Positions 32,086 through 41,566 of a stretch of DNA of 64,000 nt are shown one piece after another. Source of the DNA: Paenibacillus aceti (GTDB lineage Bacteria > Bacillota > Bacilli > Paenibacillales > Paenibacillaceae). Each line of letters starts with the position of its first letter. The first letter of the stretch is position 1. The notes beneath the pieces were generated by a model. It made no database searches. It was not told the origin of the DNA and was given only the letters and a program-made list of their open reading frames with translations. The stretch covers positions 3,225,319 through 3,289,318 of the forward strand of contig NZ_KZ987724.1 of assembly GCF_003614185.1 (NCBI RefSeq), written 5' to 3'. A program made the translations under genes and the position numbers.

Positions 32086-33525
32086 CTACCGCCCCTTGCG
32101 CCGCCGGGAAGATCTCCGTCGCTTGCCTCGGAGTGAGGACCGCTTCACCGTCTTACGTCTCAATAGCAATAGCCCCCGGCCTTTGACCCTCTTTCGTCTG
32201 CCTGATCTATGACGGCGTCTATGTCTACTGCTCTTCACTGGGGATTGCGACGCACTTGCTTCATCCTGTGCCATCGCAGCAGGGATATCCCGGGGCGGTG
32301 TGGCGAACGGTGCAGGAGGCATAGGAAGATGAACCAGCTTCCCGGTCAAACCCTGGATTTGGCGGACGATTTGCTGGACTCGTTCGCCATACGCCCCTGC
32401 TCCGAATCGGGCCATCGCTCCGTGATGATTGTCCCTGCCAACCTGCTCCGCCACCCCCGGGTTATCAAGCAGCTCCCTTACTTTGGCAGCTAACTCCCCC
32501 ATATTTCCGGTTGGCACCAAATAGCGTCCACTTCCGACAGCCATAAGGATCTCTTCCAGCCCCCCCGAGGCATAAGCTACGACCGGCTTGCCGAAGATCA
32601 GCGCCTCCAGCGCAGTTAATCCGAAACCTTCCCTTACCAGTCCGGGAATCACTACGATGTCCATCGCACAATAGGCCGCCTCAATATTCAGCTCATGGTC
32701 GACGAATATAAACCTTTGCTTCATGGCGGAGTAAGTGACCAGACGTCTGAGCTTGCGGGCAAACCCCTTATTAATCTCTCCTCCGATAATGACGAACCGT
32801 GCCTCCGGATGCCCTGCTCCAATGATCGTAGCTGCTTTGATGAAATGATCCGCACCCTTCTCGGGAGTCAGGAAGGACGAGATATAGCCGATCAGCTTCG
32901 CATGCTCTGGTACCCCCCATTTCTTCCGCTTCTGCTGTCGGAAGCTCTGCCATTCCGCAGGACGGAATTCTTCATGATTCCATGAGGGGTAGAACAGTGC
33001 CAGCTTGCTCTCCGCCAGATAACTCCGAAATGGCGACATCGCCGATGTAGAAATACATATGATCAAATCGCTATACCGGTCGATGGTATGAATCGCATGC
33101 TGCAGGTAAGCATCGGCGAAGATGACCTCGGTAATATGCCAGATGACGGGAATAGCCAGTGATTTGGCGGCAACCGCCGGTATGACATTCACACAGGTAT
33201 TTACAAAAACATAATCCGGGCGTTCAGCCTCAAGAAGAGCGATTGCCTCCTTGCACTCGGGAGATAGTGCATAGGCTTCTACATCCCGGGGCAACCCCTC
33301 ATAGGGGGTAAACATACCGTACAATAGCGGGAATTCCCGAATGATCGTTCGAATCCCCGCATCGGTGGCCAATTGGGTGAGTCTTCCCTCATGCGGCGCA
33401 ACGATCGTGCAATCGAAATAGGAGGAGAATGTCCGAGCCAGAAAGAGCAATAACTTCTCTGCTCCAGTAATGTTCCGGATATTACTCACATGTGAGAAGA
33501 GCATCAGCTTTTTTTTATCTGACAT
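32086..33525 (-). CDS. GT4 glycosyltransferase with Arg/Lys-rich C-terminal tail
   Basis: 479 residues. GT-B body (about 1-400): LMLFSHVSNIRNITGAEKLL, APHEGRLTQLA, HITEVIFADAYL, then LIGYISSFLTPEKGADHFI and REGFGLTALEALIFGKPVVAYASGG. After a Pro-rich linker (about 400-430) comes a tail of 49 residues with 27 Lys/Arg, composed of RRR and SSR clusters. Such tails are not part of the GT4 family and resemble those of coat-type basic proteins. GGAGG eight bases before the ATG at 33525 sets the start. It probably acts on the spore surface, the tail giving electrostatic binding; inference. Confidence 0.85.
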   Translation of the reverse strand: MSDKKKLMLFSHVSNIRNITGAEKLLLFLARTFSSYFDCTIVAPHEGRLTQLATDAGIRTIIREFPLLYGMFTPYEGLPRDVEAYALSPECKEAIALLEAERPDYVFVNTCVNVIPAVAAKSLAIPVIWHITEVIFADAYLQHAIHTIDRYSDLIICISTSAMSPFRSYLAESKLALFYPSWNHEEFRPAEWQSFRQQKRKKWGVPEHAKLIGYISSFLTPEKGADHFIKAATIIGAGHPEARFVIIGGEINKGFARKLRRLVTYSAMKQRFIFVDHELNIEAAYCAMDIVVIPGLVREGFGLTALEALIFGKPVVAYASGGLEEILMAVGSGRYLVPTGNMGELAAKVRELLDNPGVAEQVGRDNHHGAMARFGAGAYGERVQQIVRQIQGLTGKLVHLPMPPAPFATPPRDIPAAMAQDEASASQSPVKSSRHRRRHRSGRRKRVKGRGLLLLRRKTVKRSSLRGKRRRSSRRRKGR

Positions 33526-33601
33526 ATCAACTTCCTCCATATCCCTACATCCTTCCTGATTGCTCCAAGAAGGTGATAACCTGCATGCATCAGAACTCTT
33601 A

Positions 33602-34732
33602 TTAGAAAATAGTGCCGAGCAGTTCATTCAGACGATGACTGTACGTGTGCTCGCGGAAGGTTCTTTCCAGAGCTCTTAAAGCGATCTCCTGACGTTCTTT
33701 CTCGTGGGACAAGTAGAAATTGATCTTGTCGATCAGCTCATCGCCATTTGCGAAGGTCTCGATTTCGACTCCTGGCTTGTAGAAGGAGGCTAAGTCCTCA
33801 CGAACATCGACAAGCTGCAGCGTGCTACTAGCCGAGATCTCGAAAGTACGCGGATTGGGAGAGATTGCCCCGATCTGTAAAGCGTTATTGTTCACTGAAC
33901 TATCGAGTGCAGAGCGATGCAGATTAATGACGATCTTCGTCCCGCTGTAGACCTCTGCCGTCTCTACGGGTCCCATCCACTTGCCGATTTCAATCCGGTC
34001 GGGATATTGAGTATATTCGGGCAGTCGATCCCACCAGATGCCGTTGATCATTAACCCCTTCTCCATCAGAGGACCGATGAGCGGGCGCAGGAACTCTACA
34101 CGATTCCAGTAAGCTGAACCGATAAAGCTGACCTGGCGACGAACCGCGGAACGGGTTAATGTTGGCCGGTAGTGGCCTGTATAAGCAGCGAAGGGTAAAT
34201 AATGAACATTGCGGCAGCCAAGAGAGCGGTATAGATCCAGGCAATTGCGCTCCAATGTGAAGACATAATCATAGTGAGGCGCAATCTTGGTCGTCATGTC
34301 GGTATAATAAGGATCATCTGTCAGCCAGATAGCCGTTCTAATGCCCAGTGCGCGGACAGCGTCAACCTGTTCAACCGGCAGATCCATGCCATCGAGCGCG
34401 AGCAATAAGTCAGGTCGGTGCGCTGCCGCCAATTCACGGATCGGCTGGCTCACTTCTGTCGTCACTACGCTGGCGGTCAAGGTCTTCAGCGTCTCGATCA
34501 CCGCCTCATCGATCGGCGAGTAAGGAAATCCCTTACCTGAGCTTACGTACAGAATCCTGATTTGCCGGAACGGCAATGGCGGTCGCGCCTTTTCCACAAT
34601 GCTCTTCGAGCGCCCCCGCAAATACCCCTCGGCATATCCATCCTTGAGCCCGTCTTCCCATCCTCTGCGCCCGGTATCGTCTGATGGATGCCCCGGAAAT
34701 GGATGGACGGAATGTCCTCCTGGTTGTATCAC
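33602..34732 (-). CDS. CgeB-like glycosyltransferase with N-terminal Gly-aromatic repeat (copy 1)
   Basis: 376 residues. The body resembles the CgeB spore-maturation family (DUF3880 plus a GT-B-like second half): IRILYVSSGKGFPY, DLLLALDGMDL, TAIWLTDDPYYTDM, VFTLERNCLDLYRSLGC, then VSFIGSAYWNRVEFL and NPRTFEISASSTLQLVDVREDL. Before it, residues about 23-41 carry the tag GWEDGLKDGYAEGYLRG, i.e. an aromatic or Leu plus x-x-Gly every four residues. CgeB influences the outermost spore layer in Bacillus. GTG start with GAAGGAG. Paralog of the next gene (shared motifs throughout). Confidence 0.85.
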   Translation of the reverse strand: MIQPGGHSVHPFPGHPSDDTGRRGWEDGLKDGYAEGYLRGRSKSIVEKARPPLPFRQIRILYVSSGKGFPYSPIDEAVIETLKTLTASVVTTEVSQPIRELAAAHRPDLLLALDGMDLPVEQVDAVRALGIRTAIWLTDDPYYTDMTTKIAPHYDYVFTLERNCLDLYRSLGCRNVHYLPFAAYTGHYRPTLTRSAVRRQVSFIGSAYWNRVEFLRPLIGPLMEKGLMINGIWWDRLPEYTQYPDRIEIGKWMGPVETAEVYSGTKIVINLHRSALDSSVNNNALQIGAISPNPRTFEISASSTLQLVDVREDLASFYKPGVEIETFANGDELIDKINFYLSHEKERQEIALRALERTFREHTYSHRLNELLGTIF

Positions 34733-34764
34733 GATACTGTCACTCCTTCTTTCGTAATGGAAAT

Positions 34765-35853
34765 CTAGAATACGAACTCAAGCAGCTGACTGACTCGATT
34801 CGCAAATGTGTGATTCTTCCGTGTGGTCCATAGAGAACGCCAGGCAATCTTTACCCTCTCTTCCTCATGTTTAAGATAATGATCAATCTTGGACCGTAAA
34901 TCATCGCCATCCGTAAAGGTCTCGATGTCATAGCCGGGACGGTAATGCTTGAACAGATCCTTGCGAACATCCGTGATCTGCAGCGTTCCACAGGCGGAGA
35001 TTTCATAAGTCCGCGGGTTGATCGAGCTGCCGGAAATGCCCCTGCCGTTCCGATTGTCCGATCCTGCCGTTGTCGGACGATGCAGATTGATTACAATCTT
35101 GGATCCGTTGTAATAAGCAACGGTCTCGGATACGGGAATCCAGCCGCTGCGGATGAAGCGCGATAATTGATCGTGATGGCTGAGCCGATCCCAGTGGCCA
35201 CCGGCAATCAGGACTTTCTTGTCCTGCAGATAGGAGGCCAACTGATCGAATAGCTCCACCCTGTTCCAAAAAGCATTGCCTATGAAGCAAATATCGAACT
35301 TCTGCTCCGGCTTCGTCCTTACCGGAGCGAACGTATTTGGAGATATGGCCAGGGGTAAATAATAAACTTGTGAGCAGCCTGCCTCTTTATAGAAAGAAAT
35401 GCAGTCCTGCTCATGAGTAAACACTACATCATAGGCCATGGATAGCCTCGCCGTATCGTCTGTAAAATAAGGATCATCCACGAACCATACTGCCGTCTTT
35501 ATCCCCATCTGGCGAATCATCCTGATATGCTCCTCATGTTCGGCCGGAAAAACATGCAAACCATTCATAACAAGCACCAGATCTGGACGCCCCGCTCTTG
35601 CCGCCTCAAGCATCGATTCCGGAGTCGTGACGATGCACTCTGCCGTCAGCTCCTGGAGCGCTTCACTAAGCCCCTGGTCGATCGCTTCGAATCCTTGGGG
35701 GACATACAGAACTCTAATGTTCTTCTTGCCGGATATCCTCGGTGGAATTCTGGCCAATATGGCCTGGCAGCCGCCATAACGGTACCCCTCTTGATATCCA
35801 GCCCTGTAATCCTCACTGGAGATCCGCATCTTAGCATTCTTCAAGACATTCAT
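34765..35853 (-). CDS. CgeB-like glycosyltransferase with N-terminal Gly-aromatic repeat (copy 2)
   Basis: 362 residues, paralog of the downstream gene: IRVLYVPQGFEA, TAVWFVDDPYFTDD, VFTHEQDCISFYKEAGC, FDICFIGNAFWNRVELF, NPRTYEISACGTLQITDVRKDL. Tag DYRAGYQEGYRYGG at residues 15-28. The start is uncertain: the ATG at 35853 has only a weak site (AGATAGG) and an in-frame ATG eight codons later has none better; both keep the tag. CATATATTT, part of a sigma-K-like -10 box, lies about 50 bases upstream without a proper -35. It stands downstream of the terminator that closes the adaptor operon. Confidence 0.83.
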   Translation of the reverse strand: MNVLKNAKMRISSEDYRAGYQEGYRYGGCQAILARIPPRISGKKNIRVLYVPQGFEAIDQGLSEALQELTAECIVTTPESMLEAARAGRPDLVLVMNGLHVFPAEHEEHIRMIRQMGIKTAVWFVDDPYFTDDTARLSMAYDVVFTHEQDCISFYKEAGCSQVYYLPLAISPNTFAPVRTKPEQKFDICFIGNAFWNRVELFDQLASYLQDKKVLIAGGHWDRLSHHDQLSRFIRSGWIPVSETVAYYNGSKIVINLHRPTTAGSDNRNGRGISGSSINPRTYEISACGTLQITDVRKDLFKHYRPGYDIETFTDGDDLRSKIDHYLKHEEERVKIAWRSLWTTRKNHTFANRVSQLLEFVF

Positions 35854-35970
35854 CCTATCTGTGAATGGATTTCCTAGGTCTGTATAAATATATGCTAGGG
35901 GTACACGTGCATCATGGACGACTACCCCGCGTCCGCATAAATTGGCGAATGCCTTCTATGTATAAACAGA

Positions 35971-36006
35971 AAATCCCCTATCCAGCCGTGCAGCCGAATA
36001 GGGGGA
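35971..36006 (-). terminator. Terminator closing the tagged-enzyme operon
   Basis: CCCCTAT and ATAGGGG with inner pairing CGGCTG/CAGCCG form a stem; on the minus strand ATTTTCTGTTT follows. It separates the adaptor gene from the CgeB-like gene. Confidence 0.7.
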
Positions 36007-36042
36007 GTGCTCCTTAATTTTATGAGATTCATAGATTTAAAT

Positions 36043-36405
36043 TTAGGCCTGATCTTGATAGCCTATTTTATGCCCGTCCTCAAATCCTTCGGAGAACCCT
36101 GAATCAAAGCCCACTTGATAGGCATCATTATAGGAAGTTTGATAATCCGTCGATTCATTTGAGGGTTCTTCCGGTACGGTAACCTCTACAGGCTCCGGTA
36201 CTGGGGTCCCTTCTGTACGGCGGCGGTTAGGGTAGCGGCTGCGACGCAGCCTGCCCCTCCGTCCCGATTTAAGCCTGCGGCTGCGTCTACCTAGTAGCCT
36301 GCGTCCGCGTTTCAAAGCAATTTTGCGCCTGCCCTTACCCTTACGGGCTCTACCCAGCCGCTTCGATTTGGAGCGGCTACCGGCGCGGACCTTAGCTTTT
36401 AACAT
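36043..36405 (-). CDS. Bipartite basic/Gly-aromatic protein, candidate adaptor, 120 aa
   Basis: Residues 1-63 contain 32 Lys/Arg (KRGRRLLGRRSRRL and similar); residues 64-84 are an acidic Pro/Glu linker; residues 88-117 carry six spaced repeats of Tyr/Phe-x-x-Gly or Ala (YQVGFDSGFSEGFEDG). Thus it combines both accessory segments found separately on the glycosyltransferases around it. GGAGGAAGAGG sets the start at 36405; codons further upstream belong to the preceding gene, with which it overlaps by seven bases. Last gene of the operon. No catalytic motif. I propose a scaffold or docking protein of the spore surface; this is inference and no family is recognised. Confidence 0.7.
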   Translation of the reverse strand: MLKAKVRAGSRSKSKRLGRARKGKGRRKIALKRGRRLLGRRSRRLKSGRRGRLRRSRYPNRRRTEGTPVPEPVEVTVPEEPSNESTDYQTSYNDAYQVGFDSGFSEGFEDGHKIGYQDQA

Positions 36406-36713
36406 ATTGCCTCTTCCTCCTGTTCTCCTCGGGTGACATCTGCTGCTGCATAGCAAGAATCCGTAATCCAGGGCGTTGAAGGAGTTCCATAATGAATGCG
36501 ATGTAAGGCTACCCCACATACTGTATGGGCAATCGCTTGCTGATATTTCACAAGTATCTTCACATTTTCAGCCAGATGACGGGCTGTATCTTCGGAATGA
36601 TGAGTCATGTCTGCCATGCTATCCAGAATGCGCGCCAACGCCATTTGGCTCTTGGCAATGGCTTCTACAACATTTATTTTGGCCTTCTCTCTAGCATGAA
36701 GATCGATCATCAT
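36399..36713 (-). CDS. Small helical protein, third of three tandem relatives, 104 aa
   Basis: Almost all-helical: INVVEAIAKSQMALARILDSMADM, then HLAENVKILVKYQQAIAHTV, and a non-helical C-terminus with two Cys. Its core pattern (hydrophobic-x3-A-x-Q-x3-A-x-IL) is shared with the two genes upstream, so the three seem to be distant paralogs. GGAGG precedes the start, and the start overlaps the previous stop (ATGA). No enzyme motif. Context between a GT2 and the adaptor candidate suggests a structural or partner role at the spore surface. Confidence 0.65.
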   Translation of the reverse strand: MMIDLHAREKAKINVVEAIAKSQMALARILDSMADMTHHSEDTARHLAENVKILVKYQQAIAHTVCGVALHRIHYGTPSTPWITDSCYAAADVTRGEQEEEAIC

Positions 36714-37060
36714 TTGTCTGTATCCTCCAAATCAAAGCCGCCGTCACCGAACAAGCCATCCAGGCTTCCTTCCTTCTCGCTTTCCTCTTCTGCCGAGATA
36801 AGCACGGTTTTCAAATTGCTGCATAAGCCGTTCTGCAGCTTCGTCAGTCCCTCCACCACCTCCACGACCTGATCATGAATATCGAGCGGCTCGGATAACT
36901 GCTTCTCATGCTCATCAAACGAGTGATGATGAACATGATTTAATATCCAGTTACGTACCTTCTCGGCTTCAATAGCCTTCGCCTCCAGAATCATGGCAAC
37001 GTTCCACTGGACCTTGGAGGCTGCATCCAAAATGTGCAAATAAGCATGCTCCCTGCTCAT
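36710..37060 (-). CDS. Small helical protein, second of three tandem relatives, 116 aa
   Basis: Helical protein: HILDAASKVQWNVAMILEAKAIEAEKVRNW, a His-rich turn (HVHHHS), then HDQVVEVVEGLTKLQNGLCSNLKTV, and an acidic Gly/Asp C-terminus. Related in pattern to the genes on both sides. The start at 37060 is supported by AGGGAGGG; a slightly longer frame starts at 37081 without such a site. The acidic end (GSLDGLFGDGGFDLEDTD) could contact the basic segments nearby; inference. No recognised family function. Confidence 0.65.
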   Translation of the reverse strand: MSREHAYLHILDAASKVQWNVAMILEAKAIEAEKVRNWILNHVHHHSFDEHEKQLSEPLDIHDQVVEVVEGLTKLQNGLCSNLKTVLISAEEESEKEGSLDGLFGDGGFDLEDTDK

Positions 37061-37084
37061 GGCACCCTCCCTGCTTCGCACTCA

Positions 37085-37372
37085 CTACTCTTCATCCTGG
37101 CTTCTCATCTCTTTCAAGACGAAGCCCAAATTCTCGGCCATAGCCTCTTGAAGATCAGCGATAGCATTCAAATAAGAAACGACGCTTTTGTTGACACGGC
37201 CTGAGTTCTCGATCAGACCAGGTACTCCCTCAAACCCAGGCTCAGTATCAGGGATGGCATGGACGACCTGTGCCATGCGAACGGCAACCTGCCGTTCGGC
37301 ATCTATCACTCTTGCCATTTGTTGATGGGAATGAGACATATGGGTAATAATTTCTGTAATTTTCTGCTCCAT
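37085..37372 (-). CDS. Small helical protein, first of three tandem relatives, 95 aa
   Basis: Helical protein: ITEIITHMSHSHQQMARVIDAERQVAVRMAQVVHAI, a short loop with Pro and Glu, then VNKSVVSYLNAIADLQEAMAENLGFVLKEM. No membrane span or signal. GGAGG sets the start at 37372. It follows the GT2 gene after 113 bases without a terminator and precedes its relatives by 24 bases. Small proteins of this type appear, to my knowledge, mainly in Paenibacillus surface-glycan loci; function unknown. Confidence 0.7.
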   Translation of the reverse strand: MEQKITEIITHMSHSHQQMARVIDAERQVAVRMAQVVHAIPDTEPGFEGVPGLIENSGRVNKSVVSYLNAIADLQEAMAENLGFVLKEMRSQDEE

Positions 37373-37485
37373 CCTGATTCCTCCAAGCCTTTTTGTATGC
37401 TTATAATAGACGGCACAGGCTATGCCCGGCATTCATCTTGGTTCAGCATATGCACGGTAATAGCCTGTCGTTCCAGGAAATGAAC

Positions 37486-38796
37486 CTATAAAAACGGCGA
37501 TTTCAGTCGGGTGGGCGGAGCGATCGGAAGTCCCTCCGGCCAGACGCTCCAGGATTCTGAGGAAGCTGAGCGTTCTGGAATAGCGAATCCCCAGGCTGTG
37601 CAGGCGTAAGCGGATATAAATTCTCTCCTCGTCCCCCGATCGAGCTGGCATATCGCCCCATTTTCCAGCATGACCACTTTTCCATCCCCTGACTGCCCGG
37701 CCATAATCACGTCCAGCTCAGCCTGACCATACTCACTACCCGTAGGAATTTGCTTTAACTCAATCACGGATAGCCTGATGGAACGAGCCTTAATCATCTC
37801 ATTTTGTACTCCGGCAGCTAACGGGTGCTTCACTCCATGCTCCAGCCAGAACAGCTTTCCACCTACACTGCTGATCCAGATATGGGTCGGGAAGAAGTCA
37901 ACAGCTTTATAATTAGTAGCCGACCTGTCTGTCAGCTGCCGCGCCGATTCATAGCGTTCTCCCCATTTATAGGTAAAAAACTGCTCATTCCTGTCGTTGA
38001 CAGCGGTAAATTGCTGCTGGCCAAGCCCCTTCATCGTGACGCTTCCTATATGATGAACAAAGGTGTCAGCAGCGATCTTCATCCTCTTGCCTTGCAGGCG
38101 TAAGCGCAAATTCCAATCATCATCCTCAAAATTCCCGACTTCATAGCCCTCATCCAAATATCCTACCTGTTCAAAGGTGCTGCGCCGCAGTAGAATACAG
38201 AAACCGACCAGCCTGCTCGTATCCCGCCATTTTCCGGGGTCACTGTGATTATAGGCAGCGGCAAATTCCAGCATTCGTGCAATGTCATCATAAGGAACAC
38301 CGATCTGCTGCTCCCCGCTAATGTAATTAGTAACCGGGCCTACCGCCGCCGCATCCGGACATCCGTGGAGACAGGCCAGCATTTGTGTCAGCCAGCCCTC
38401 CGTCACGAATACATCATTATTCAACAGCACCATCGTCTGTCCTCTCGCCATCATCAGCCCGGTATTGATCGCCTGGGCAAAGCCGAGATTTGTCGGATGC
38501 GCCGCGATACGAATCGACCTGCAGCGACGGCGTAACTCTTCTACCGTTCCATCCTGCGAGCCATTATCGACAATAATGATTTCATAGGGAGATACCGTAT
38601 GCGCCGCGATATAGCTCAGACACTGGAGCAGGAGATCTTTCTGGTTATAGGTTGGAATAATGATGCTGGTTCCCTCGAACCAATTACCATAGGTTGCTTG
38701 CCCAGCTTTAACCCCCTTGTCATATCCCGCTCGATACCCGCGTTGATAGTCGTTAGGATTACTTGAGTTATTGTTGCCTCGCCGACTGCTCCGCAA
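37486..38796 (-). CDS. GT2 glycosyltransferase with N-terminal Gly-aromatic repeat
   Basis: 436 residues in three parts: a short basic/Asn start and the tag DYQRGYRAGYDKGVKAG (residues 16-32); a GT2 catalytic domain (about 40-290; SIIIPTYNQKDLL, IIIVDNGSQDGT, VLLNNDVFV as DXD equivalent, NFEDDDWNLRLR); and a C-terminal domain of about 120 residues (FPTHIWISSVGGKLFWLEHGVKHPL) of unknown role. TTG start with GGGGAGG seven bases upstream. The GT2 core is a paralog of the gene at 40835-41566. Probably acts on the spore surface; substrate unknown. Confidence 0.85.
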   Translation of the reverse strand: MRSSRRGNNNSSNPNDYQRGYRAGYDKGVKAGQATYGNWFEGTSIIIPTYNQKDLLLQCLSYIAAHTVSPYEIIIVDNGSQDGTVEELRRRCRSIRIAAHPTNLGFAQAINTGLMMARGQTMVLLNNDVFVTEGWLTQMLACLHGCPDAAAVGPVTNYISGEQQIGVPYDDIARMLEFAAAYNHSDPGKWRDTSRLVGFCILLRRSTFEQVGYLDEGYEVGNFEDDDWNLRLRLQGKRMKIAADTFVHHIGSVTMKGLGQQQFTAVNDRNEQFFTYKWGERYESARQLTDRSATNYKAVDFFPTHIWISSVGGKLFWLEHGVKHPLAAGVQNEMIKARSIRLSVIELKQIPTGSEYGQAELDVIMAGQSGDGKVVMLENGAICQLDRGTRREFISAYACTAWGFAIPERSASSESWSVWPEGLPIAPPTRLKSPFL

Positions 38797-38812
38797 GATG
38801 CAGCCTCCCCTC

Positions 38813-39712
38813 TTAATTGAGCGTCATTTCTCCTGAATTGAATTTATCCGCCAGATGGCCCATATCGAGCGCAACCTTGCCCCTCTCTTCGGCGATCCGC
38901 ACACATAGAATTACAGCCGCGATTCCCGCCGCCACGAACGCAATATCGAAATCAATAGCGGCAATCTGCTCCATGATGCGCTGGATATCAGAGACGCCGC
39001 GAACCGGAGTGACCACTCCCTGAATCTGTAGCCCATTCGCTTGCAAATACACGGCCAGGCGCGGAGACTCATTGCCGATCAATAGAATTTTACGTCCGGT
39101 CAGCAGAGGTCTCAGCCATCCTTCCTCATTCAGCGCATAGTTCACAATAGATGAAGCCAGCCTCAGCTTCCTGTAGTCAATTCCATAATATCGAAGAACT
39201 GGAAACAGGAGTCCTTGATAGGAAGGATGCCGGGATTCAGGGATACCGACGATACTTGCCCGCGAGATCGCCCTGGCCATATCAATTCGTGCGTGAGGGT
39301 CCGGAAGATTGACTCCTGCATACGGCAAAAAGGCCCCCCAGCGCTGTACCTGCTCCACTGGCATGACCGTATCATGGGCTAACGTCAACAGCTCGCCATC
39401 ACCGAGTCGTACCAATGAGAAGGATCTGCCCTGTATAAGCGCCTCATTCAGCTCCCGACTGACAGCATCAGTTGTAATGAGCGGCACCAATGAGGAGGTC
39501 AAGCTGCGCATTCCGGCTTGTATAACGTCATCCACCGTCAATTCAGGCAAGATCATTTGCTTGGGTATCAGCTGACCTAGCTTGGCCTCTCCGCCATCGT
39601 ACACCCCCTGCCGATATCCTTCCTCATAGGCCGCAGCTTCGGCCTCCTTATGGGAGTTGTCTAGATTTGGCGGCGTCGGTGCCACCCAAGGCACCTCGAC
39701 CGGATCGCTCAT
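38813..39712 (-). CDS. GT-D fold glycosyltransferase with N-terminal Gly-aromatic repeat
   Basis: 299 residues. After a Pro-rich start comes the tag AYEEGYRQGVYDGG (about residues 28-41). The catalytic part has FSLVRLGDGELLTL, the DGE motif of the GT-D (DUF1792-like) glycosyltransferases, then GIPESRHPSYQGLLFPVLRYYGI, ILLIGNESPRL and DIAFVAAGIAAVILCVRIA, the Rossmann-like second part. The ribosome site is poor. It lies 15 bases after the small basic gene and 16 bases before the tagged GT2 gene. Donor and acceptor unknown; GT-D enzymes are known from serine-rich adhesin glycosylation. Confidence 0.82.
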   Translation of the reverse strand: MSDPVEVPWVAPTPPNLDNSHKEAEAAAYEEGYRQGVYDGGEAKLGQLIPKQMILPELTVDDVIQAGMRSLTSSLVPLITTDAVSRELNEALIQGRSFSLVRLGDGELLTLAHDTVMPVEQVQRWGAFLPYAGVNLPDPHARIDMARAISRASIVGIPESRHPSYQGLLFPVLRYYGIDYRKLRLASSIVNYALNEEGWLRPLLTGRKILLIGNESPRLAVYLQANGLQIQGVVTPVRGVSDIQRIMEQIAAIDFDIAFVAAGIAAVILCVRIAEERGKVALDMGHLADKFNSGEMTLN

Positions 39713-39727
39713 ACTTTTATATGTTTT

Positions 39728-40021
39728 TTACTCATCAGACTCCCGAATTTGCTCATTTGCCCAATTCTCGCCCGTCCCTTTTGCTGTATAGATCCCGCGG
39801 GACGAACCTTGATTAATCTGGCGGGGGCGCCGCTGGCTTCTGCGTTTTTTCCCCCTCGCCAATCCGCTCCGCGGATGCCAAGTCGATGTGCTTTGCCATG
39901 GACCACGCCGCGACCTGCGCCCACTGCGCTCTCCGTATGACAAGGGGCCGGCCAGACGAGGCACCCTCCTTATTCTCCGGCTCTTGCCGACCTTTCGGGA
40001 ATTATATCCTCTGACCGACAT
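39728..40021 (-). CDS. Arg-rich small protein, 97 aa
   Basis: A short protein dominated by Arg, Lys, Gly and Ser (SRKVGKSRRIRRVPRL, GKKRRSQRRPRQ) with an acidic end (NEQIRESDE). The start at 40021 has GGAGAGGAG in good position. Another frame (39709-39924) ends in an ATGA overlap with the next gene and is also basic, but has no ribosome site, so I prefer this one; some doubt stays. It resembles in composition the basic parts of the adaptor candidate and of three glycosyltransferases in the same locus. Confidence 0.55.
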   Translation of the reverse strand: MSVRGYNSRKVGKSRRIRRVPRLAGPLSYGERSGRRSRRGPWQSTSTWHPRSGLARGKKRRSQRRPRQINQGSSRGIYTAKGTGENWANEQIRESDE

Positions 40022-40071
40022 CAATCCCGCTCCTCTCCAGACTGGTGAAACGATCCATCCTGACTTATGAC

Positions 40072-40803
40072 TTAGGGCAGCACGCCCCTCATATACACTT
40101 CCGCCTCACGCAATGACTCAGGGGTCCCCGCGTCGCCCCACCATAGCTTCAAAATGTCATATTCCAGCTTGCCTTGCTCCGCGTATCGGTTATTGACATC
40201 CGTAATTTCCAACTCTCCCCGGGCCGAACGGCTTATCCCCTTAATGATGCTGAACACCGTGTCATCATACATATAAATTCCGGTTACTGAATACTTCGAT
40301 TTGGGATGCTTCGGCTTCTCTTCAATATAAGTAATAAGCTCAGGTTGCTTCTGATCGAAGACAGGAACCCCATAACGTCTCGGATCATCCACAGGCTTGA
40401 GTAATACTCTGGCGCTGCCACTCTGCTGCTGTTCATATTGCTGCACATAAGGTGTCAAATCATCGAGGAATAAGTTATCCCCGAGCAATACGACGAACTT
40501 CTCTCCAGCAGCTATGAATCCCTCGGCTAATTCCAGCGCTTCAGCGATCCCTCCGGCGGATTCCTGAACCCGGAAATTCAGCTTGACGCCGAAGTTCTCC
40601 CCGCTGCCGAAGAAATCAGCATAGAGACCCGCCGATTGTTTGCCAATCACCATGAGAATATCGTTGATTCCGGCCTGACGCAGCCGTTCTATGCCATAGC
40701 AGACCATAGGGTATCGCCCGACCGGAAGCAAGTGCTTATTAATTAATCGGGTTAACGGATACAGACGTGTTCCGGTGCCGCCTGCCAAAATCACACCTTT
40801 CAT
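40072..40803 (-). CDS. Glucose-1-phosphate thymidylyltransferase-like, short SpsI type
   Basis: 243 residues. Nucleotidyl-transfer motif GVILAGGTGTRLYPLTRLINKHLLPVG at the N-terminus, then PMVCYGIERL, LLGDNLF with the metal Asp, YIEEKPKHPKS and YDDTVFSI. About 45 residues shorter than RmlA and close in size to SpsI, the enzyme of spore-coat polysaccharide synthesis in Bacillus subtilis. Product should be a dTDP- or UDP-hexose. No rmlB, rmlC or rmlD gene is in the window, so the activated sugar is used directly or converted by enzymes elsewhere. GGAGGGGG sets the start. Confidence 0.88.
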   Translation of the reverse strand: MKGVILAGGTGTRLYPLTRLINKHLLPVGRYPMVCYGIERLRQAGINDILMVIGKQSAGLYADFFGSGENFGVKLNFRVQESAGGIAEALELAEGFIAAGEKFVVLLGDNLFLDDLTPYVQQYEQQQSGSARVLLKPVDDPRRYGVPVFDQKQPELITYIEEKPKHPKSKYSVTGIYMYDDTVFSIIKGISRSARGELEITDVNNRYAEQGKLEYDILKLWWGDAGTPESLREAEVYMRGVLP

Positions 40804-40834
40804 GAACTCCCCCTCCTTCAAAGTAAATACCTTC

Positions 40835-41566
40835 TTATATAAACTGCCAAGGATCCACGCCCCATTTTTCGATAAACAAGCCTCGATTCCGTCCGACCAG
40901 ATCCTTCCAGCCGTCGGGATGATGCTGTTTAAAGCTGGCGCTTCCGGCGTGATAGACTAATGTATCCCCGCTGATCAACAGGCGGTATCCTTGCCTTCGA
41001 GCCCGATAGCAGTAATCATCATCTTCATAATGCCCCGGTGAGAATCGCTCATCGAGCAGCCCCATCTCATCGAGCAGCTGGCGCTTGAACAGCAGACACA
41101 TTCCAACGAGCCGCTGAACCTCCTGCCATTTTGCCGGATCTGATCGATTGTATTGCTCAGCATGAGCATAATACTCTTCAAGTCCATTCCAGCTCACCTC
41201 CAGCTGCTGTCTGCCGCTGCAGTAATTCGTTACCGGCCCTACCAGGCCGACATGGTCCGCACTATGCAAGGCTGTTAGCATATTGCTAAGCCAATTGTGC
41301 GATACAATCACATCATTGTTCAGTAGCAGAATCTGATCGCCCGCAGCAATGCTCATTCCCCGATTACATGCAGCGGGAAATCCCGCATTATCAGCTAGAG
41401 ATATAACGATAAGCCCTTCACGCAGACCGTATTCGGCGGTTCCGTCCTGAGACCCGTTATCCACAATAATGATCTCGTACGGAACTTCAGTGAAGCGGCG
41501 AATCGCCTCCACACAAGGGACCAGTAGCTGCAGGCCGTTATAGGTCGGAATAATAATACTAGTCAA
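40835..41566 (-). CDS. Glycosyltransferase, GT2 family
   Basis: 243 residues, GT-A fold, without tag or basic extension. SIIIPTYNGLQLL, IIIVDNGSQDGT, LLLNNDVIV, GPVTNYCSGRQQ and YEDDDYCYRAR; closely parallels the catalytic part of the GT2 at 37486-38796, so the two are paralogs. The proposed TTG start at 41566 lies six bases after GAGGGAG and just behind the stop of the preceding gene; the longer frame to 41647 overlaps that gene and has no comparable site. Substrate unknown. Confidence 0.85.
   Translation of the reverse strand: MTSIIIPTYNGLQLLVPCVEAIRRFTEVPYEIIIVDNGSQDGTAEYGLREGLIVISLADNAGFPAACNRGMSIAAGDQILLLNNDVIVSHNWLSNMLTALHSADHVGLVGPVTNYCSGRQQLEVSWNGLEEYYAHAEQYNRSDPAKWQEVQRLVGMCLLFKRQLLDEMGLLDERFSPGHYEDDDYCYRARRQGYRLLISGDTLVYHAGSASFKQHHPDGWKDLVGRNRGLFIEKWGVDPWQFI

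Follow-up and report, generated by a model that had tools for sequence, protein, structure and literature searches.

Repeats in which glycine and tyrosine or phenylalanine recur every four residues (G-Y/F-x-x-G) are described in three papers, on SMN (PMC8287954), FliH (PMC2674601), and the Yae1-Lto1 pair (PMC4523923). SMN assembles into a YG zipper dimer and into higher oligomers, and its zipper, a soluble dimerizing helix (PDB 4gli), is the oligomeric core of a multiprotein complex (PMC8287954). In FliH, Tyr or Phe very frequently follows the Gly (position x1) of GxxxG repeats, for which a helix-helix contact was proposed (PMC2674601), while the GX3 glycines of Lto1 are needed for pairing with Yae1, and the Yae1-Lto1 pair acts as an adaptor (PMC4523923). 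Another report lists Bacillus subtilis CgeB as one of nine glycosyltransferases with a potential role in crust glycans and suggests CgeA as a possible glycosylation hub (PMC10502511), so that a functional niche for such a hub exists. Here we report that five neighboring genes in a 64,000-nucleotide stretch of Paenibacillus aceti DNA (contig NZ_KZ987724.1, positions 3,225,319 to 3,289,318; hereafter, the window) encode proteins sharing a segment of this kind, which we call the tag, and that the tag is conserved in their orthologues across Paenibacillaceae.

The tag is a Y-x-x-G-Y-x-x-G-Y-x-x-G-like segment with an aromatic-x-x-G unit every four residues. It lies near the N terminus, ahead of the catalytic domain, in four glycosyltransferases and at the C terminus of a small basic protein:

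33602..34732, minus strand: CgeB1, DUF3880 plus Glyco_trans_1_2 glycosyltransferase with an N-terminal tag
34613..34660, minus strand: tag of CgeB1, WEDGLKDGYAEGYLRG
34765..35853, minus strand: CgeB2, DUF3880 plus Glyco_trans_1_2 glycosyltransferase with an N-terminal tag
35770..35808, minus strand: tag of CgeB2, YRAGYQEGYRYGG
36043..36405, minus strand: 120-residue basic protein with the tag at its C terminus, the proposed hub (open frame starts at 36519)
36058..36120, minus strand: tag of the basic protein, YQVGFDSGFSEGFEDGHKIGY
37486..38796, minus strand: GT2 glycosyltransferase with an N-terminal tag
38701..38748, minus strand: tag of GT2, YQRGYRAGYDKGVKAG
38813..39712, minus strand: GT-D fold glycosyltransferase with an N-terminal tag (PF22882, E value of 1.1e-79)
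39590..39628, minus strand: tag of GT-D, YEEGYRQGVYDGG

A first-pass annotation of the window, made from the letters and their open reading frames, had claimed five proteins with a period-four Gly-aromatic segment within 6.4 kb; all five are where it placed them, with the small correction that the aromatic positions are in part Leu, Val, or Gly. Its claim that the tag sits on enzymes of different families is borne out by Pfam, which assigns the enzymes to DUF3880/Glyco_trans_1_2, GT2, and GT-D, which we take to be three folds. CgeB1 and CgeB2 have the CgeB-like architecture of DUF3880 followed by Glyco_trans_1_2 and are the two DUF3880 proteins of the genome, both tagged; the GT-D protein scores over the cutoffs of PF22882 (267.1 bits) and NF040628 (249.2 bits). 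No Pfam or NCBIfam family matched the tag itself over its cutoff.

The annotation had also known of no described system of such form, a statement that the descriptions of FliH, SMN, and Yae1-Lto1 correct. The SMN zipper has the same Y-x-x-G-Y-x-x-G-Y-x-x-G phase (PMC8287954), and the tags likewise interleave YxxxYxxxY with GxxxGxxxG, with Gly directly before the aromatic residue; SMN differs in serving eukaryotic ribonucleoprotein assembly and in being one protein. In a profile search of solved structures, four chains were listed for the tag (best E value of 0.25), and the SMN segment YMSGYHTGYYMG of 4gli aligned in the same phase as the fourth of the four, with an E value of only 2.2. FliH shares bacterial G-Y/F-x-x-G repeats with the tag and differs in its AxxxG(xxxG)mxxxA runs and in being a flagellar export protein (PMC2674601); PF02108, the FliH domain, was not listed for the five tagged window proteins. 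Yae1-Lto1 resembles the tags in carrying a GX3 motif on two different proteins, where it is required for their complex; it acts in Fe-S assembly, and its deca-GX3 motif spans 40 residues, in contrast to three to five repeats in the tags (PMC4523923). Among the open-license papers searched, nothing was found joining glycosyltransferase, GxxxG, and spore coat, or joining DUF3880 and spore, and papers on CgeB in Paenibacillus, judged by title and the start of the abstract, had none on such a tag. The kind of motif is thus already known, and the papers searched contained no report of it on a set of sporulation-type glycosyltransferases.

An 18-column profile of the five segments retrieved just those five from the whole 5.6-Mb genome (E values of 3.5e-6 to 7.7e-5), the next match having an E value of only 0.295. 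Because this search is circular, the profile having been made from the very segments it recovers, an independent profile was built from 43 tags of other genera. With it, the five tags ranked 1, 2, 3, 5, and 9 of 10 in the window genome, with E values of 5e-5, 0.0014, 0.041, 0.083, and 1.36. Since a single tag lies near noise with the independent profile, the case rests on recurrence.

Recurrence was assessed in 100 further loci covering twelve genera. Sixty were fetched around tag matches, drawn from among those listed; 40 were picked by the GT-D domain, from among the domain matches listed, in genomes without a tag match at an E value of 0.001, and were not a random draw. Rows were retained if they were long enough, scored >60 bits, and matched the query near its start, and the motif was sought in the N-terminal extension plus 15 residues for the tagged classes and in the first 80 residues for other enzymes. 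The motif was present ahead of CgeB1 in 73 of 79 rows, CgeB2 in 60 of 61, GT2 in 85 of 85, and GT-D in 63 of 74; in the other enzymes of the same clusters it occurred in 9 of 421. For the 60 tag-chosen loci, the counts were 48/50, 44/45, 50/50, and 35/41, respectively, with 5/291 for the other enzymes. The 40 GT-D-chosen loci gave 25/29, 16/16, 35/35, and 28/33, with 4/130 for the others; here the plain GxxxGxxxG pattern was found in 29/29 CgeB1 and 19/33 GT-D proteins. Residue shuffles of the same extensions produced the motif in 4 to 7%. Gly stood at the same three columns in 93 to 100% of rows in every class, in a register picked by a score favoring Gly there.

The five-segment profile, at an E value of ≤0.001, matched 253 of 395 Paenibacillaceae genomes in 14 of 19 genera. 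In a class-wide draw it matched 33 of 398 genomes, 32 of them family members (the one outsider is G477), and the 43-tag profile matched 9 of 398 genomes of a phylum sample, six being family members and the other three matches being FliH. The first-pass annotation had proposed asking whether profile matches cluster with cgeB, sps, and glycosyltransferase genes; in the window genome they are confined to one cluster, and among the 60 tag-chosen loci the cluster order is largely constant across genera. As for CgeB-like enzymes elsewhere, 58 DUF3880 relatives were taken from 34 of the 35 nonfamily genomes with a match (G516 was left out); most begin at or near the domain, and a few have longer N-terminal parts. 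N-terminal GxxxGxxxG was seen in 2 of the 58, both long frames with doubtful starts, and in 0 of 5 third DUF3880 copies within the family. A looser pattern was present in 18 of the 58, and judging from the N termini, we ascribe most of these matches to the beginning of the catalytic portion (e.g., WIHGLPNGF). The system thus differs from CgeA/CgeB crust glycosylation in B. subtilis in that, two doubtful exceptions aside, the nonfamily DUF3880 relatives have no N-terminal tag; B. subtilis itself was not singled out by name among the 58.

The tag signature differs from one orthologue class to the next, and the aromatic columns are not invariant. To judge from these sequences, the tag is an old, fixed feature of each orthologue, since class-specific signatures favor old acquisitions followed by vertical descent; the tags of CgeB1 and CgeB2 may be of one origin, because the two enzymes are relatives. 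The idea of a tag independent of its enzyme holds in part: the tag occurs on several Pfam families, and in a looser form on GT4, and it follows each orthologue with its class signature. A freely moving cassette was not supported on these grounds.

The looser form concerns a long GT4 in variant clusters, whose N-terminal extension carries Y/F-x-x-G-x-x-x-G-Y/F-x-x-G in 12 of 12 cases; Glycos_transf_1 was over its cutoff in 2 of 3 scanned. The same loose repeat was found in 0 of 16 untagged GT4 paralogues, twelve of which directly adjoin a tagged GT4. In a GT4 tree, the tagged (11 rows) and untagged (16 rows) proteins split at one branch with support of 100/99, and a single gain or loss is therefore enough; the tree holds 11 of the 12 tagged proteins (L158 was dropped by the length filter), was rooted for drawing only, and has long branches that were flagged.

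The basic protein consists of K/R-rich sequence and the tag and hardly more, with a lysine-plus-arginine (K+R) fraction of 0.34 ahead of the tag in the window. A small protein of this makeup was found in 87 of 101 loci, namely, 59 of the 60 tag-chosen loci, 27 of the 40 GT-D-chosen loci, and the window. Its median length is 115 residues and its median K+R fraction before the tag is 0.33; the search required a K+R of >0.18 there, a floor that in part predetermines the basic character. On visual inspection, conservation is highest in the tag, with the consensus AYQEGFNSGFAKGFEDGH. The basic protein matched NCBIfam FliH weakly (E value of 4.7e-5; 22.8 bits, the cutoff of 192 not being reached) and Yae1_N (PF09811) at 19.5 bits, under the 27.5-bit gathering score, as were the GT2 (19.4 bits) and basic protein (19.0 bits) of the variant cluster. 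Basic stretches also precede the tag in many GT-D and GT4 proteins, and some untagged cluster enzymes likewise have basic N termini. At four g16 loci (L143, L147, L150, and L156), GT-D has a second, longer YG repeat before the usual tag that, by eye, is like that of the basic protein.

The basic protein is reached from h115, the first gene of a presumed operon, through two further small genes that accompany the tagged proteins in many clusters:

36399..36713, minus strand: h104, small protein with no Pfam match, present in many related clusters
36710..37081, minus strand: h123, small protein with no Pfam match, present in many related clusters
37085..37432, minus strand: h115, small protein with no Pfam match over the cutoff (likely start MEQKITEI, internal to the frame)
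37445..37472, minus strand: sigma-K-like promoter sequence, AC-N17-CATATGCT

The sigma-K consensus is AC, 16 to 17 bases, and CATAnnnTA. The pattern AC-N15..17-CATATGYT, chosen after viewing the h115 upstream regions, was found upstream of h115 in 31 of 41 loci, 22 of which have a spacing of 17; the GCATATGYT core is present in 36 of the 41. In fifteen other classes of genes, SpsI alone was preceded by the full pattern (2/56), and the core stood before SpsI (3/56) and GT-D (1/42). A looser sigma-K pattern set beforehand was present at h115 in 28 of 41 loci (1.2 in shuffles) and also before two other glycosyltransferase genes of the cluster, in 15 of 54 and 4 of 21 (2.5 and 0.9 in shuffles). 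The h115 pattern departs from the consensus in that the last −10 base varies. Since the upstream sequence resembles the consensus, late mother-cell expression of the presumed h115 operon is likely. A further block (35880 to 35953, minus strand), between the basic protein and CgeB2 genes, consists of CGCCAATTT, followed about 45 to 50 bases on by GCATATA, and recurs in several genera; a short form of the CGCCAATTT element was seen in 36 of 100 loci, some in plainly other contexts. The block may be another promoter used in sporulation, together with a site for a regulator. Rfam gave no match up to an E value of 1 within positions 33400 to 41000, this block included.

By analogy with the systems described above, a tag on several enzymes together with a protein of basic stretch and tag is the arrangement one would expect if a docking system were built around a hub. 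We propose, with somewhat better than even confidence, that the tag is a docking segment that gathers late-sporulation glycosyltransferases around the basic protein. The tag would be a soluble, YG-zipper-like (GxxxG) helix-packing segment that docks CgeB1, CgeB2, GT2, GT-D, and, in some lineages, perhaps GT4 with each other and with the basic protein, which would act as an adaptor whose tag binds the enzymes and whose K/R-rich portion attaches to the surface of the forming spore or to an acidic glycan. These proteins would be made late in the mother cell, from the sigma-K-like promoter, and the assembly would build or attach an outer spore glycan. The first-pass annotation had proposed a docking or self-assembly module on the spore surface; the tag-plus-basic protein and the promoter-like sequence are consistent with docking or assembly during sporulation, and location on the spore surface, self-assembly, and choice of partner are inferred. 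A bolder version, in which one YG-zipper-like helix on glycosyltransferases of three folds and a basic hub make up a sporulation docking code of the Paenibacillaceae and run an assembly line for glycan at the surface of the spore, is more tentative, and we lean slightly against it as a whole; counting the looser GT4 repeat would bring the families in such a code to four.

Several observations weigh against the docking proposal. The 43-tag profile parts the five tags from noise only partly, and the genome's own FliH appears at rank 7. The simple pattern also occurs within catalytic bodies (GT2, 46/50; CapD, 25/30), and the K+R fraction of tagged extensions (median, 0.16 to 0.23) overlaps that of control N termini (0.075 to 0.31). 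GT-D lacked the motif in 11 of 74 rows, L160 being among them only because its extension was shortened in processing, and no copy of the basic protein was found at 13 of the 40 GT-D-chosen loci and at 1 of the 60 others; most of these loci without it have tagged enzymes. Only 3 of the 12 tagged GT4 proteins pass the stricter motif of the other classes, and their profile E values are 0.14 or worse. AlphaFold models were poor, with a mean predicted local distance difference test score of 50 for CgeB2 and 36 for GT-D; the CgeB2 tag was drawn as a single helix (residues 13 to 34) at low confidence, and the models, which rest on three (CgeB2) and two (GT-D) sequences, are too weak to use. Finally, FliH is reported to be a dimer with the same motif, and homodimerization alone could therefore account for the tags.

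If so, each tag would merely pair copies of its own enzyme, no shared assembly would exist, and the likeness would reflect convergence on a simple helix-dimer motif. The FliH identity of all three nonfamily matches among the 398 phylum genomes speaks for such an account, as do the separate signatures of the orthologue classes. It sits poorly with how rarely the motif occurs on the remaining glycosyltransferases and sugar-nucleotide enzymes in these clusters and with a tag on a small protein that has no recognized catalytic domain, and we consider it unlikely, if a serious contender. The tag could also be an address read by another protein, such as h115, h123, h104, or a coat protein, and not by other tags; these three genes precede the basic protein in many clusters behind one promoter-like sequence. 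GxxxG helices of this kind, however, are reported or proposed to pair mutually, and the tag pattern is not matched in the h115, h123, and h104 frames of the window, which leaves this reading distinctly improbable. Were the basic-aromatic N terminus instead to bind glycan or nucleic acid, the frequent K/R-rich stretches ahead of the tag would be explained and the Gly spacing would be incidental; Gly nonetheless occupies the same three columns in 93 to 100% of rows in each class, even if the register score favors it, and we give this explanation very little credence. Least credible is an artifact of chance or composition. The motif is short, and lone tags fall near noise with the independent profile; against this, it is nearly universal in the orthologues of twelve genera, including loci from genomes without a tag match. 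Conservation in the 100 further loci makes chance very unlikely, and it was rejected on the 40 GT-D-chosen loci.

To our knowledge, how glycosyltransferases reach the outer layers of the spore, and how a number of them could work in sequence on a single glycan, are open questions. The present work extends the initial observation to a family-wide, multienzyme feature with a mostly-tag partner, and a shared tag with a small, mostly tag and basic partner makes these questions testable with few constructs. If the docking proposal is true, an uncharacterized small basic protein found across many Paenibacillaceae would gain a role, and a natural pair of docking partners would be at hand for positioning enzymes on spores; a true docking code would amount to a soluble, scaffold-based bacterial counterpart of the SMN and Yae1-Lto1 assemblies.

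The tagged genes belong to a glycan gene cluster on the minus strand, running from about 40.8 to 29.1 kb of the window in the order nucleotidyltransferase, GT-D, GT2, h115, h123, h104, basic protein, CgeB2, CgeB1, GT4, UDP-GlcNAc 2-epimerase, and more sugar genes. Paenibacillus sp. D2_2, a relative reached via the GT-D protein, has the same gene order. A YheC/D ATP-grasp gene, of a type tied to spores, lies on the opposite strand about 4 kb past the upstream end of the cluster, with sugar-nucleotide genes nearby. The untagged neighbor GT4 (32086 to 33627, minus strand) has a long K/R-rich C-terminal tail, a further basic stretch on a cluster enzyme. In the genome of L012 and L078, the CgeB1, GT2, and GT4 genes of the cluster are seemingly split into several frames, by decay or sequencing error. 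One more basic sequence lies upstream of GT-D:

39728..40024, minus strand: 98-residue basic frame, in the same reading frame as GT-D, with a stop between

The relative L012 has a basic stretch joined to GT-D in a single frame.

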